DNA of 33,316 nt from Bacteroidaceae bacterium. Lineage in GTDB: Bacteria > Bacteroidota > Bacteroidia > Bacteroidales > Bacteroidaceae. A program made the position numbers and the translations under genes. Location of the stretch: the NCBI GenBank assembly GCA_017469925.1, contig JAFUFK010000028.1:1-33316 (forward strand), in the 5' to 3' direction. Positions 1-33,000 of the stretch are shown one piece after another (positions within the stretch are counted from its first letter, which is position 1; each line of letters begins with the position of its first letter). Under the pieces are notes generated by a model. It was not told where the DNA came from and made no database searches. It saw nothing but the letters and a program-made list of their open reading frames with translations.

Positions 1-6
1 CTTTTT

Positions 7-139
7 GATTCTTGTTCCAGAAATTTCGCCAAAAATAACTCTCAAGATGATAGAAGTTGATGCTCGCGTTTTGGCGCGGGCTGATACTTGTATTTGAGAG
101 AACGGCGTTTGGCGATGCCTCTGGAACGGATACAGAATC
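7..139. ncRNA. Rod-like imperfect inverted repeat, possible structured RNA
   Basis: Six nested helices can be read directly: 7-12 with 134-139, 15-21 with 120-126, 27-33 with 108-114, 39-45 with 94-100, 54-57 with 86-89, and an apical stem 62-68 with 75-81 (one G-T pair, loop TTTTGG). All share one axis and are separated by short internal loops, giving an unbranched rod. A short T tract (152-156) follows on the plus strand, which would fit transcription in that direction, but the 5' side runs into the window edge and no promoter can be seen. It could be a 6S-like regulatory RNA, the folded end of a mobile element, or a read-through terminator. The identity is inference; only the pairing is seen. 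Confidence 0.4.
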
Positions 140-247
140 AGACTCGCGCCATTTTTATTACATATTAACGATATTTAACGCTATCGGCGCCACATTTTGG
201 GCAAAACCTACGTATATATAAATATAGAAGAAGCAAAACAAGGAAAT

Positions 248-1540
248 ATGAACAAGAAAACCATCATCACCATACTGTTTGCACTTGCCGCCTTGGTGGG
301 GCAGGCACAAGTGAAATGCCACATTGAAGGCAAGTTTGTTGATAACAAATGGGGCGATGAAGTCGTCATCTGCAAGATGGGGACAGACCTGCGCGTCAAT
401 GATGCACCAGAATGGCACCACAAGGCCGTGAATGGTCGCTTCGAGTGCGACATTGAAACGGATGTTCCTGAAATGTACGAGGTCATACCCTATAAACAGT
501 ATGTAGAGACCGCAAGTTATTATTATGGATGGTTCCTTGTGGAGAACGGAACGGTAAGGATAGAAATCTACGGCGACAAGTCTCCAAAGATAGAGAGTAC
601 AGGCGACGAAGGCCGATTGCATCAAGCGATGGATAGCGTTGCAGGTGTTCGTTTCCGTAACGAAATGGAGAGGATAAACCGCGAGTTGGAAGAACACAAG
701 GAAAAATACTTCAAACCCGAATTTCTGTCACTCATGCAGATAGCGGAGAATCTTGACAGAGAGAGTCTGCCCAAGGCATACGTTGACAGCATTGAGCATG
801 TAATGGATTTCTACTATGACAACGAACGCGAGAGTTACACAGATGAAGGTTGGCAGTTGTTCCAGCGTGCCAATAGTTTAGATAGTCTCACCTATCCGTT
901 CCGGTCAGAATACTATGCCGAACATCCCATGCTGTGGGCTTATTACCACGTGTTGCAGTCTATCGAAATGCTCAAATTTGCAAACGTATACCATAATTTC
1001 GATGCCACTCCCCATGAGCAAATGGTCGCACTCTACGAATCAAAACTATACAATTTGTACAAGGGTCATCCCATTCACGAGCAGATTACCACAGCCCTGA
1101 CAGCCCTTCGCTTTCAGCCCGGCAAGCACTACATCGACTACAATGTCCGCAACACCGATGGTCAAATCGTTCCCATTTCCTCACTCATCCGAGGAAAGGT
1201 TGCTCTCATTGACCTCTGGGCATCGTGGTGTGGTCCCTGCCGTCGGCACAGCAAGGCCATGATTCCCGTCTATGAACGATATAAGGATAAGGGATTCACG
1301 GTCGTTGCCATTGCCCGTGAACGCAAGCGAGAGGATATGGAAAACGCAGCGAAGAAAGACGGCTATCCTTGGCAGAGCCTCTTGGAACTGAACGACGAAA
1401 ACGATGTGTGGCGCAAAAACGTAGCCGGCAATGGCGGAGGTGCCATGTTCCTCATCGACCGTGACGGCACCATTCTCTCCACCTCTACGGATGCTGAAGA
1501 ACTGGAACCCATCATCAAGAAAGCACTGAATATTGAATAG
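248..1540 (+). CDS. Secreted TlpA-like thioredoxin-fold protein (tandem copy 1)
   Basis: This 430-residue exported protein has a signal peptide MNKKTIITILFALAALVGQAQ, an N-terminal beta-rich region resembling DUF4369 (about 22-110), a helical linker, and a C-terminal TlpA/AhpC-type thioredoxin domain (about 295-430). The redox motif WASWCGPC is at 324-331 (Cys328, Cys331). The family reduces or isomerises disulfides in the periplasm. The start at 248 is chosen over an in-frame upstream start at 197 because it begins the signal peptide and matches the start of the two following paralogues. The stop is 3 bases before the next ATG, so the three genes are probably one operon. Oddly, the loop before FLIDRDG, where thioredoxins carry a cis-proline, reads NGGGAM with no proline. 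A clear promoter was not found. The substrate is unknown. Confidence 0.88.
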   Translation: MNKKTIITILFALAALVGQAQVKCHIEGKFVDNKWGDEVVICKMGTDLRVNDAPEWHHKAVNGRFECDIETDVPEMYEVIPYKQYVETASYYYGWFLVENGTVRIEIYGDKSPKIESTGDEGRLHQAMDSVAGVRFRNEMERINRELEEHKEKYFKPEFLSLMQIAENLDRESLPKAYVDSIEHVMDFYYDNERESYTDEGWQLFQRANSLDSLTYPFRSEYYAEHPMLWAYYHVLQSIEMLKFANVYHNFDATPHEQMVALYESKLYNLYKGHPIHEQITTALTALRFQPGKHYIDYNVRNTDGQIVPISSLIRGKVALIDLWASWCGPCRRHSKAMIPVYERYKDKGFTVVAIARERKREDMENAAKKDGYPWQSLLELNDENDVWRKNVAGNGGGAMFLIDRDGTILSTSTDAEELEPIIKKALNIE

Positions 1541-31106: not shown

Positions 31107-31892
31107 CTATTTTTTTATGGGAAATATTTTCATATAATTGTAATCTGTAATTTTCAGAATTCCTTTCTCATCTAATTCGGCTATTGCTTCTACTTTCTTA
31201 CAATCATCATTATAGTATGCAACAGAATAATAACCCTTCCTTACTTCCTCGAAAACAGCTTTAACATCAGCGGAAGCCCAGTTGGGATTGTCTGTCTCCA
31301 ATATAATAGCGACATACTTATTCCCCTCTTTAATAATTCCCAATTTATAGAAAGTACTTCCTATATTCTTATATATACCTTCTATTTCATCAAGCTCTTT
31401 TGTTGAAAGATATTCATTTATTTGTTCTGCCGTCCATGCTGAAATTGATGATGACGGAATCTGTGAAATAGGTGTTTTATCTGGGTCGAATTGATAGGGA
31501 CATTTCAATACTATTTTCAAGGCGTTTTTCCCCGCTCGAGCCAATTCGTTATCTGCTTTAAAGCCCCAATTCGCGTGCCCACTTAAAGTCATCACATTTT
31601 CTCCTAGCATATTATTAATTACAATTGTAACAAATGTTCCCACACTATGCCTAACCTCATAACTCCATGAACATATTAGAGTAGCCATCCTTTCCTCTCT
31701 CTTTGTAGGCATACTTGATTTCTGCTTGATAAATGTAAAGCCCTTATTGACAAAACAATTTTCTATTTCTTGTTCAATTCCCGATCCTTCACGTGACGAT
31801 TTTAGATACAAGTATTTATATCCATCTAGGTCTTGGGCATTTACAATGAGTGAACATAATGCAACTACTAATAAAGAAATAACATGTCTCAT
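31107..31892 (-). CDS. Secreted protein of unknown function
   Basis: This 261-residue protein has the signal peptide MRHVISLLVVALCSLIVNAQ. ATG 31892 is chosen because the upstream in-frame start at 31934 would put 14 charged residues before the signal. The N-terminal half has a strand/helix pattern (GYKYLYLKSSREGSGIEQEI, MATLICSWSYEVR) and a central DELARAGKNALKI-like helix; the C-terminal half is mixed alpha/beta (STFYKLGIIKEGNKYVAIIL). No family is recognised. It precedes the small lipoprotein by 4 bases and is A+T-rich like it. A structured RNA candidate ends about 60 bases upstream and could be a separate transcript or its leader. Confidence 0.7.
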   Translation of the reverse strand: MRHVISLLVVALCSLIVNAQDLDGYKYLYLKSSREGSGIEQEIENCFVNKGFTFIKQKSSMPTKREERMATLICSWSYEVRHSVGTFVTIVINNMLGENVMTLSGHANWGFKADNELARAGKNALKIVLKCPYQFDPDKTPISQIPSSSISAWTAEQINEYLSTKELDEIEGIYKNIGSTFYKLGIIKEGNKYVAIILETDNPNWASADVKAVFEEVRKGYYSVAYYNDDCKKVEAIAELDEKGILKITDYNYMKIFPIKK

Positions 31893-31951
31893 AAATAACT
31901 GATTTAATTTGTTTTTAATTTCGTTATAGTCCAATCACGTAGTATAGACAG

Positions 31952-32098
31952 AAAAAAACGTGGACCAAAACTTCGTTTATGCTCCTGAGGTATCGGCAAA
32001 CACCATGCAACCATATACGAGTAAAAGTCCACGCCATCGAGCGTGAACATTAACCTTACTCTTGGTTGCTCCATCTAATTTGCCGATTTTCAGGAAGC
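31952..32098 (-). ncRNA. Candidate structured small RNA (about 147 bases)
   Basis: Reading the minus strand from about 32098, a long-range helix pairs 32079-32087 with 31992-32000 (9 bp, perfect), 32090-32095 with 31983-31988 (6 bp) and 32097-32098 with 31981-31982. Inside it is a local hairpin of 8 bp (32041-32048 with 32027-32034, one G-T pair, 6-base loop). The strand then runs to GTCCACG (31965-31959) followed by seven T (31958-31952). GTCCACG is complementary to the 3' arm of the local hairpin (32033-32027), so that arm can pair in two ways. TAACTTTG at 32112-32105 is a -7 box whose start point would fall at the foot of the long helix. It resembles in outline the published description of Bacteroidales-1 RNA; identity is not verified. 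Confidence 0.6.
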
Positions 32099-32104
32099 AA
32101 GAAT

Positions 32105-32112
32105 CAAAGTTA
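32105..32112 (-). promoter_or_regulatory. Promoter -7 box of the RNA candidate
   Basis: TAACTTTG on the minus strand fits TAnnTTTG; no good TTTG lies 19-21 bases upstream. Its predicted start, about 7 bases on, coincides with the first paired base of the RNA helix. Confidence 0.45.
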
Positions 32113-32171
32113 ACGTTCTTTCTATGTGTCTTTATGTTTCTGTGCTATGTCATGTTTTTATAATTTTAATC

Positions 32172-32263
32172 GGGCTTCGCCCTGTTTAACGTTTAAAGTT
32201 TAATGGTTTATAGCGCTTCGCGCTGGTATTATCACTACGTGCTGGCATAAGCGCTGACGCGCT
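32172..32263. repeat. Tandem mini-hairpin repeats
   Basis: After a single GGGC-TTC-GCCC hairpin (32172-32182) come three tandem units of 20, 19 and 20 bases starting with GG and ending in GCT: 32205-32224 (AGCGC-TTC-GCGCT), 32225-32243 (CAC-TAC-GTG) and 32244-32263 (AGCGC-TGAC-GCGCT). The stems differ in sequence but keep pairing. They lie just downstream of the PIN gene and may stop its transcription. Confidence 0.65.
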
Positions 32264-32272
32264 GGTTAGAGG

Positions 32273-32710
32273 TTATGGGTTAGAGGGTCTATTATTTTGC
32301 TGTATATCTAACAGGGACATGAAATGGTCTAAAGTAGCTATTTCGACGCGAGGGAAATCTATTTGCTTCAAGACTTCGAAGTGTTTATCCTCGGTAACAA
32401 TATATTCTGCATTGGCAATAATGGCGCAATCGACAAATTTGTTGTCATCCGGGTCCTGATGGATAAGGTTGAAGTGAAAATGAGGGTCGTAGTGCAAGCA
32501 ATAGGGATTATTCAAGATAGCATCTACTACTCCTTCTGCCACAATCGGGTTGGCAACTCGCCCTATTACTTCCCGGTATTCACTGATTATCTCATTACTG
32601 ACACAAAGGCAATACAGCCCCATCTGGAATGATTTCCAAACAGGATAGTAAGGACTATGTCTGGATATCATCTGCAACAGGCAATTGGTATCTAACACTA
32701 TATTCCTCAT
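32273..32710 (-). CDS. PIN-domain toxin of a type II toxin-antitoxin pair
   Basis: PIN proteins are small Mg-dependent RNases. The 145-residue product has the family acidic residues: Asp7 in VLDTNCLL, Glu44 in ISEYREV, Asp94 in NKFVDCAIIANAEYIVTEDKHF with Asp108, and the spacing of COG1569-type putative toxins. Its ATG overlaps the stop of the upstream antitoxin-like gene by 4 bases (ATGA). The two genes are preceded by a consensus promoter. The C-terminal tail (QQNNRPSNP) runs into A/G-rich repeats and is probably not conserved. Target RNA is unknown. Confidence 0.88.
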   Translation of the reverse strand: MRNIVLDTNCLLQMISRHSPYYPVWKSFQMGLYCLCVSNEIISEYREVIGRVANPIVAEGVVDAILNNPYCLHYDPHFHFNLIHQDPDDNKFVDCAIIANAEYIVTEDKHFEVLKQIDFPRVEIATLDHFMSLLDIQQNNRPSNP

Positions 32711-33000
32711 TGCTGTGGCTTGTATGGAGTGCGGTAATGAGCGGTCTTCAGATCTTCAAGGGTTTGCTCGTTCCAAACCCCTTCTTCCCAAAGCCGATCC
32801 ATTTCCTTGTCAACGAGTTGGGCAAAGTAGTTGGAAATGGCCACTTTAAGTCCTCGTACCTCTTCGTCTGTACGCAGATGGGCGACAGCATTCAGCACCT
32901 CAATTTGCGCTGGAGTAAATACTGTATGGCCGTACAACGCCACGGGATCATTAGCCTGAAGTGGTTTCTTTTCTTCTAAGTGATATTGTTCGCTCTTCAT
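32707..33000 (-). CDS. Antitoxin-like partner of the PIN toxin
   Basis: This 97-residue protein is mostly helical and acidic/basic mixed (TPAQIEVLNAVAHLRTDEEV, FAQLVDKEMDRLWEEGVW). I recognise no DNA-binding motif with certainty. Position directly upstream of, and overlapping, a COG1569-type PIN gene is the standard arrangement for its antitoxin, and the length fits. The promoter at 33057-33026 leaves a leader of about 20 bases. The role is inferred from the context. Confidence 0.75.
   Translation of the reverse strand: MKSEQYHLEEKKPLQANDPVALYGHTVFTPAQIEVLNAVAHLRTDEEVRGLKVAISNYFAQLVDKEMDRLWEEGVWNEQTLEDLKTAHYRTPYKPQQ

Follow-up and report, generated by a model that had tools for sequence, protein, structure and literature searches.

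A stretch of 33,316 nt of Bacteroidaceae bacterium DNA (the window) carries, on its minus strand and just upstream of a gene for a 261-residue protein, a structured RNA that has diverged relatives across the phylum. Its action in cis as a 5' leader is well supported, and it is probably a transcription attenuator answering to some signal. Judging from the sequence, one strand would be shared by the apical hairpin and by a segment right before the U tract, and attenuation accounts for this most simply; termination itself we infer.

Fold and extent of the RNA

The minus strand of 32100-31945 folds with an energy of -54.3 kcal/mol. Dinucleotide shuffling gave -37.15 (sd 3.55) over 200 sequences, none of which did equally well (z = -4.83; 0/200). 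Together with the covariation in alignment A1 (see below), this bears out the discrete structured RNA proposed in the initial annotation. Read 5' to 3', it consists of a small hairpin (AAGC-N4-GCTT), the first strand of P1, hairpin A, an arm of P3, P4 and P5, hairpin B, the return strand of P1, a linker, the 3' segment and a T tract (Table 1). The T7 tract and the inner hairpin, here P5, lie where they had been placed. A long-range helix of 17 bp had also been described: the pairing stands, the single helix does not, as P1 abuts a loop-loop pairing between hairpins A and B. The covariance model R1, whose training set includes this copy, scores it at 154.9 bits (E 4.1e-28, search within the window).

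The 5' end had been put at 32098 on the strength of a -7 box (TAACTTTG, 32112-32105). This motif is not kept in relatives, and its site is that of their 5' hairpin, which is paired in 93.8% of cells in A1. Since, in addition, conserved promoter-like blocks lie further upstream in the close group, an end at 32098 is not supported and one near 32120 is more likely. In that group 114 copies have ACAT, which in 85 of them starts 12-14 nt 5' of AAGCG, and YATG lies 22-25 nt 5' of ACAT in 65 of 91; such spacing was not seen in the distant group. At the other end, conserved pairing extends beyond the T tract, to the complement at 31934-31926.

Table 1. Positions of the leader RNA copies, their parts and the adjoining genes in the window
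Feature	Position	Strand	Details
Leader RNA, copy 1	31952..32120	-	covariance-model span, 5' hairpin site through T tract; ~170 nt
Promoter-like blocks (YATG ... ACAT)	32122..32156	-	5' of RNA; spacing kept in close group only; putative promoter
5' hairpin position (AAGC-N4-GCTT in relatives)	32105..32118	-	mispaired in window copy; resembles TAnnTTTG -7 box
P1, 5' strand	32090..32100	-	partner 31988-31980; double-sided changes in 6/8 P1 pairs
Hairpin A	32077..32091	-	loop 32087-32079 pairs with hairpin B loop; own-versus-swapped loop pairing tests
Arm, P3/P4 5' strands	32054..32069	-	double-sided changes in 6/6 P3 pairs; P4 pairs change on one side only
P5, apical hairpin	32027..32048	-	32048-32040 / 32035-32027; 97.5% of cells paired in A1
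Arm, P4/P3 3' strands	32007..32026	-	covariation in A1
Hairpin B (GGU...ACC)	31989..32004	-	loop 32000-31992 kisses hairpin A; A1 helix 3 and swap tests
P1, 3' strand	31980..31988	-	covariation in A1
3' segment TTGGTCCACG	31959..31968	-	partners: P5 3' arm (pairing i) or 31934-31926 (pairing iii)
T tract, intrinsic-terminator-like	31952..31958	-	from sequence; kept in relatives
Downstream complement TTGGACTAT	31926..31934	-	between T tract and start codon; pairing -9.5 kcal/mol here
261-aa protein, signal-peptide-like N terminus	31107..31892	-	T tract to ATG 59 nt; no family assigned
Leader RNA, copy 2	1..155	+	divergent; 5' end cut by contig end; R1 71.4 bits, E 4.3e-12 in window
430-aa exported TlpA/AhpC-TSA-like thioredoxin-fold protein	248..1540	+	Pfam AhpC-TSA E 7.1e-13; after copy 2

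Relatives and compensatory change

Blastn with 32140-31900 finds four places in the RNA's own genome at E < 1e-20, the query site included. At E ≤ 1e-10, 22 of 61 genomes have a match, again counting the RNA's own; most matches start about 20 nt 5' of the RNA, near the start of the query, and stop either at the T tract or within a few nt downstream of it. Forty-one distinct copies were taken out, near-identical ones being merged, and 40 of them form A1 (the truncated L047 was omitted). With R1 the RNA's own genome holds nine copies at E ≤ 0.01. At E ≤ 1e-4 the model finds the RNA in 101 of 139 genomes of the genus, where the copy number reaches 17 in a single genome, in 94 of 295 genomes of the order (66 of 184 genera) and in 27 of 296 genomes of the phylum (11 of 140 genera), so the dispersed relatives that had been suspected do exist; its best score in 100 kb of AT-rich phage DNA was 10.6 bits (default filters). 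Stricter filters applied to searches over 40 genomes. Removal of two antisense matches from 191 left 189 distinct copies, four with too little flank, hence 185. A pattern scan of contigs from named genomes returned at least 119 stretches, and among the matches listed the carriers are Bacteroidales MAGs and one isolate, titled Prevotella, Prevotellaceae, Bacteroidaceae, Muribaculaceae, Alistipes etc., many of them from rumen. Two exact sequence patterns found nothing in viral contigs, and one query copy (L067) gave a single record with a 46-bp match among 50,697 phage records and no match among 72,556 plasmid records. In copy 2 of the window, P5 and the 3' segment are both altered to CGCG-type letters with their complementarity kept. 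Another divergent copy in the same genome lies 5' of an EcoRI-type adenine methylase gene (L178).

The 46-pair structure is paired in 94.0% of the cells of A1; shuffling the columns lowers this to 84.3%, and sliding the structure by 1-3 columns to 36-44%. Double-sided changes occur in 20 pairs, chiefly in P1 and P3, and in 5 of the 8 loop-loop pairs (helix 3), and T.G pairs are conserved on the RNA strand (columns 88-106 and 24-164). The diverse alignment A5 went from 78 rows to 77 (76 references and L240), of which 69 were passed on to A7. In the 68 of 69 sequences used, loops A and B pair at -7.77 kcal/mol with their own partners versus -2.64 with swapped ones (0 of 5000 permutations); in some rows the parser behind these figures made hairpin B too short. 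A second parser, which picks hairpin B by its best pairing with its own hairpin A, requires a standard third stem pair and parsed 68 of 69, gives -11.25 versus -4.49; as it favours own pairs, its stem counts (T-A 58, C-G 8, T-G 2 of 68) are no test. With this parser hairpin A has a stem of at least 4 in 94% of the 68 copies, against 23% with shuffled flanks. The own-versus-swapped tests hold neither phylogeny nor composition fully constant. This covariation supports a predicted domain made of a closing helix P1, two hairpins joined by a loop-loop kiss and a long arm with P5 at its tip. A check for compensation in the helices had been proposed at the outset, and the changes in P1, P3, the kissing loops and pairing (i) are indeed compensated, the opposite of what would speak against such an RNA.

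Alternative pairings of the 3' segment

The 3' arm of P5 (32035-32027) is common to P5 and to a pairing with the 3' segment, pairing (i), which excludes it. In the window the arm's CGTGGAC pairs with GTCCACG 5' of the T tract at -12.8 kcal/mol, as had been claimed. Over 77 of the 78 diverse copies, pairing (i) averages -13.95 kcal/mol with own partners and -12.41 with swapped ones (0 of 5000), and -7.47 with shuffled segments. The P5 duplex averages -14.55 versus -12.97 (77 diverse copies), so to judge by the means of -13.95 and -14.55 the two helices are nearly isoenergetic. When 73 of the 77 copies are divided into three groups, own pairs are better in distant Bacteroidales (n = 23; -13.82 versus -12.73, 0 of 5000) and outside Bacteroidales (n = 28; -15.64 versus -13.92, 0 of 5000); in 22 close copies from the window's clade, where both strands are almost invariant, the values are -11.75 and -11.70 (1254 of 5000). 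Pairing (i) shows no double-sided change in A1 either, and because the strands are invariant in the window's clade its support there comes through homology only. The mutually exclusive pairings anticipated for this RNA thus hold up through compensatory change outside that clade. Pairing (i) is weak in three copies (the second copy of L009, L219 and L066), and in the window it encloses about 60 nt, long for an intrinsic terminator. As in an attenuator, two exclusive helices have a strand in common and one of them lies directly 5' of the U tract.

The 3' segment has a further partner in the complement between the T tract and the start codon (pairing iii), at -10.12 kcal/mol for own versus -8.36 for swapped partners in 23 distant copies and -5.74 versus -5.33 in 158 parseable close copies (0 of 2000 in each). 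A local terminator hairpin (ii), ACGTAGAC/GTCCACGT, is paired in 95% of cells in the window's clade, but we demoted it because its pairing is interrupted in the window copy, and in the 23 distant copies it does not outscore shuffled sequence (-5.77 versus -6.00; close copies -6.46 versus -5.61).

As the swap tests leave relatedness in, the strongest single case for the exclusive pairings is a diverged homologue of the gene. Among 120 other genomes of the genus the 261-residue protein has one homologue, 41% identical (genome G013), and directly 5' of it R1 finds a match of 21.8 bits (E 0.0016, filters off; next best in the locus 8.1). This score alone is insufficient, since the antisense strand of the window copy reaches 19.4 bits with R1, and it is position and pairing that carry the argument. 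The G013 leader folds with z = -4.76, and 79 nt separate its T tract from the ATG. Its letters are changed almost throughout relative to the window copy and its architecture is the same, with duplexes of -12.0 (P1), -11.3 (kissing loops), -14.8 (P5), -17.1 (i) and -13.5 kcal/mol (iii), energies that come without a control. That place and pairings are kept despite new letters argues that the RNA has been inherited with the gene and that its pairings are under selection.

Genomic context

The role as a leader of the 261-residue gene, initially offered as one of two guesses, is supported: the RNA has the position of a 5' leader to the gene that it would control, presumably on a common transcript. 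A same-strand ATG ORF follows within 400 nt in 182 of the 185 copies (median start 57.5 nt, quartiles 47 and 72), and by a crude rule the first ORF looks exported in 145 of 185. When ORFs of at least 100 aa are considered (171 copies), the nearest one downstream is on the same strand in 159, on the opposite strand in 7 and absent in 5, with a median start at 58 nt; 130 of the 159 begin 30-110 nt downstream. Signal-peptide-like N termini are found, by the same kind of crude rule, in 100 of 122 target genes versus 211 of 648 other ORFs at the same loci.

Pfam and NCBIfam searches covered 145 of the 156 eligible downstream proteins, the first 25 families being tallied. By Pfam these are chiefly BspA-type LRR_5 (26), LRR_8 (16), dockerin (11), T9SS sorting tails (5) and OMP barrels (4), with DNA methylases and DarT among the single cases; by NCBIfam they are the LRR adhesin HupY/LrrG (21), Gli349 (17), PARCEL-repeat surface proteins (13) and T9SS sorting domains (9). 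No metabolic theme appears among the 25 downstream Pfam families listed. Upstream, 120 proteins of 171 passed the filters and include toxin-antitoxin-type families, in which one protein may count twice: HepT-like (9), nucleotidyltransferases (7), DUF2442 (7), ParE (7), HEPN (5), YafQ (4) and PIN_3 (3). PD-(D/E)XK transposase-type nucleases (3) and resolvases (2) are also present. In the window, a PIN_3 toxin-like gene (145 aa) overlapping a 97-aa partner with no Pfam match lies directly 5' of the RNA (32273-33000, minus strand), likely a toxin-antitoxin pair; four window proteins submitted to PADLOC had no match. At 32170-32270, in the stretch from the PIN gene to the RNA, are short GC-rich near-repeats (GCGCTTCGCGCTGG, ACGTGCTGG, GCGCTGACGCGCTGG) that resemble small REP-type hairpins, and a 5S rRNA gene stands at the contig end (33184-33292, minus strand), perhaps as the end of an rRNA operon.

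Ten of the 28 copies outside Bacteroidales have no ATG ORF of at least 50 aa within 300 nt. In genomes that appear Flavobacterium-like the RNA often has a divergent small gene on one side and, on the other, a gene that starts about 200-700 nt downstream, and two such downstream genes that were scanned encode SusC-like TonB-dependent receptors (Plug, CarbopepD_reg_2). In one series of these (L212-L238) several of the divergent upstream small genes look HTH-like by eye, and a regulator-RNA-transporter unit is possible there. In two copies (L145, L186) the first ORF after the RNA is small, HTH-regulator-like by eye and not exported-looking.

Discussion

Attenuation by this leader would proceed as follows. 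While P5 holds, the 3' segment would stay free and RNA polymerase would read through, after which the segment may pair with the second complement near the start codon (pairing iii). If instead the P5 3' arm is taken up by the 3' segment, the resulting stem would lie directly 5' of the U tract and would end transcription. The kissing-loop domain would bias the choice between P5 and pairing (i) in response to some signal, and the genes under control would be accessory ones, mostly for exported or surface proteins.

The main rival is a leader acting on translation or mRNA stability, in which pairing (iii) would be the regulated step and the U tract would serve as a loop or bind a protein. It has some appeal, as (iii) encloses the T tract, ends 5' of the ATG, outdoes every swap in both groups and has a counterpart, without a control, in the G013 leader. 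We nevertheless consider it unlikely: nearly all copies tested have, 5' of the U tract, a G+C-rich segment able to pair with the P5 3' arm, as an intrinsic terminator requires. Next comes a small RNA that acts in trans, has a promoter and a terminator of its own and adjoins genes only incidentally. The promoter-like blocks of the close group and the T tract do bound the element, outside Bacteroidales the next gene is often 300-700 nt away, and multicopy small RNAs exist in Bacteroides, as the accessible text on FopS describes (PMC11697453). Cis action is favoured over it by the fixed distance to a same-strand gene in most copies and by inheritance together with one gene despite a nearly complete change of letters, and a covarying complement in the following 5' UTR also speaks against action in trans, which we regard as improbable.

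The copies are dispersed, up to 17 per genome, next to accessory and toxin-antitoxin genes, with the few transposase-type nucleases and resolvases upstream, all of which would suit a DNA recombination or mobile element (integron-attC-like or MITE/REP-like) that functions as a folded single strand. Against this stand the T.G pairs conserved on the RNA strand, the kissing loops, the T tract, the fixed spacing to the gene start, the lack of an integrase among the 25 families listed downstream and the 25 upstream, and the leader kept with a diverged orthologue; an element of this sort is very improbable, and the integron-attC reading in particular was rejected on these grounds. A chance palindrome or an assembly artefact, which the closeness of copy 2 and several relatives to contig ends might suggest, is hardly credible given 189 distinct copies in many genomes with compensatory changes, and the covariation already refutes it.

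Beyond the single locus, we see the case as evenly balanced for an uncatalogued, phylum-wide Bacteroidota switch class, often multicopy, that would sense through intramolecular kissing loops, let three elements (P5 arm, T-tract segment, start-region complement) compete over one segment and in this way gate a large set of non-homologous accessory surface-protein genes by one common signal. If this is true, many unrelated surface genes (BspA-type LRR, dockerin, lipoproteins and, in Flavobacterium-like genomes, SusC-like transporters) would be under one RNA switch, which would span gut, rumen and other Bacteroidota and would have been missed by Rfam-based annotation. It would offer a handle on the timing of accessory surface-protein display, a common regulon definable from sequence alone and, for structural studies, an RNA class whose natural covariation is unusually rich.

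Comparison with known RNAs

The Rfam scan suggested initially (Rfam 15, gathering score) matched only the 5S gene in the window, and at E ≤ 10 the region 31800-32300 returned only chance snoRNA rows. Across 39 distinct loci (20 + 20, one common), very diverged and non-Bacteroidales ones included, the leader RNA has no match at the gathering score. Bacteroidales-1 (RF01693), the identity first considered, is therefore not borne out; like Flavo-1 (RF01705) and 6S-Flavo (RF01685) it is also a structured Bacteroidota RNA, according to the accessible part of PMC2864571, and none of the three matches the leader in the window or at the 39 loci at that score. A literature search whose reach excludes subscription papers and preprints found no description of the leader RNA. 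The 2021 human-microbiome RNA catalogue lists Bacteroidetes motifs in its accessible part (PMC8040213), and an unnamed entry there may overlap it; a term search within the text of PMC11109978 did not find the relevant taxa.

As described in the accessible portions of their reports, FopS RNAs of Bacteroides are multicopy, about 65-70 nt long, and act in trans on susC start-codon regions through an R1 seed (PMC11697453), and GibS, of 145 nt, also acts in trans on start-codon regions (PMC7366714). Both are structured Bacteroidales RNAs like ours, which those descriptions set apart by its length of about 170 nt and its fixed place 5' of a same-strand gene. Rfp18 of Flavobacterium psychrophilum, strongly folded, conserved in Flavobacterium and affecting secreted-protease mRNAs in the accessible account (PMC9723704), resembles the leader, by description, in its fold and its link to secreted proteins.

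With trp-type attenuators and terminator riboswitches such as the purine class, the leader has in common a folded leader, a strand in two exclusive helices, a U tract and a gene just downstream. Purine riboswitches have intramolecular kissing loops too. Riboswitches are marked by a conserved ligand-binding core; what is conserved here is a kissing-loop domain. In contrast to those systems, the strand that enters both helices comes here from an apical hairpin (its 3' arm) on an arm between two kissing hairpins, an extra covarying complement follows the U tract, and there is neither a known aptamer nor an Rfam match. The kind, a leader attenuator, is known, and the class appears to be new.
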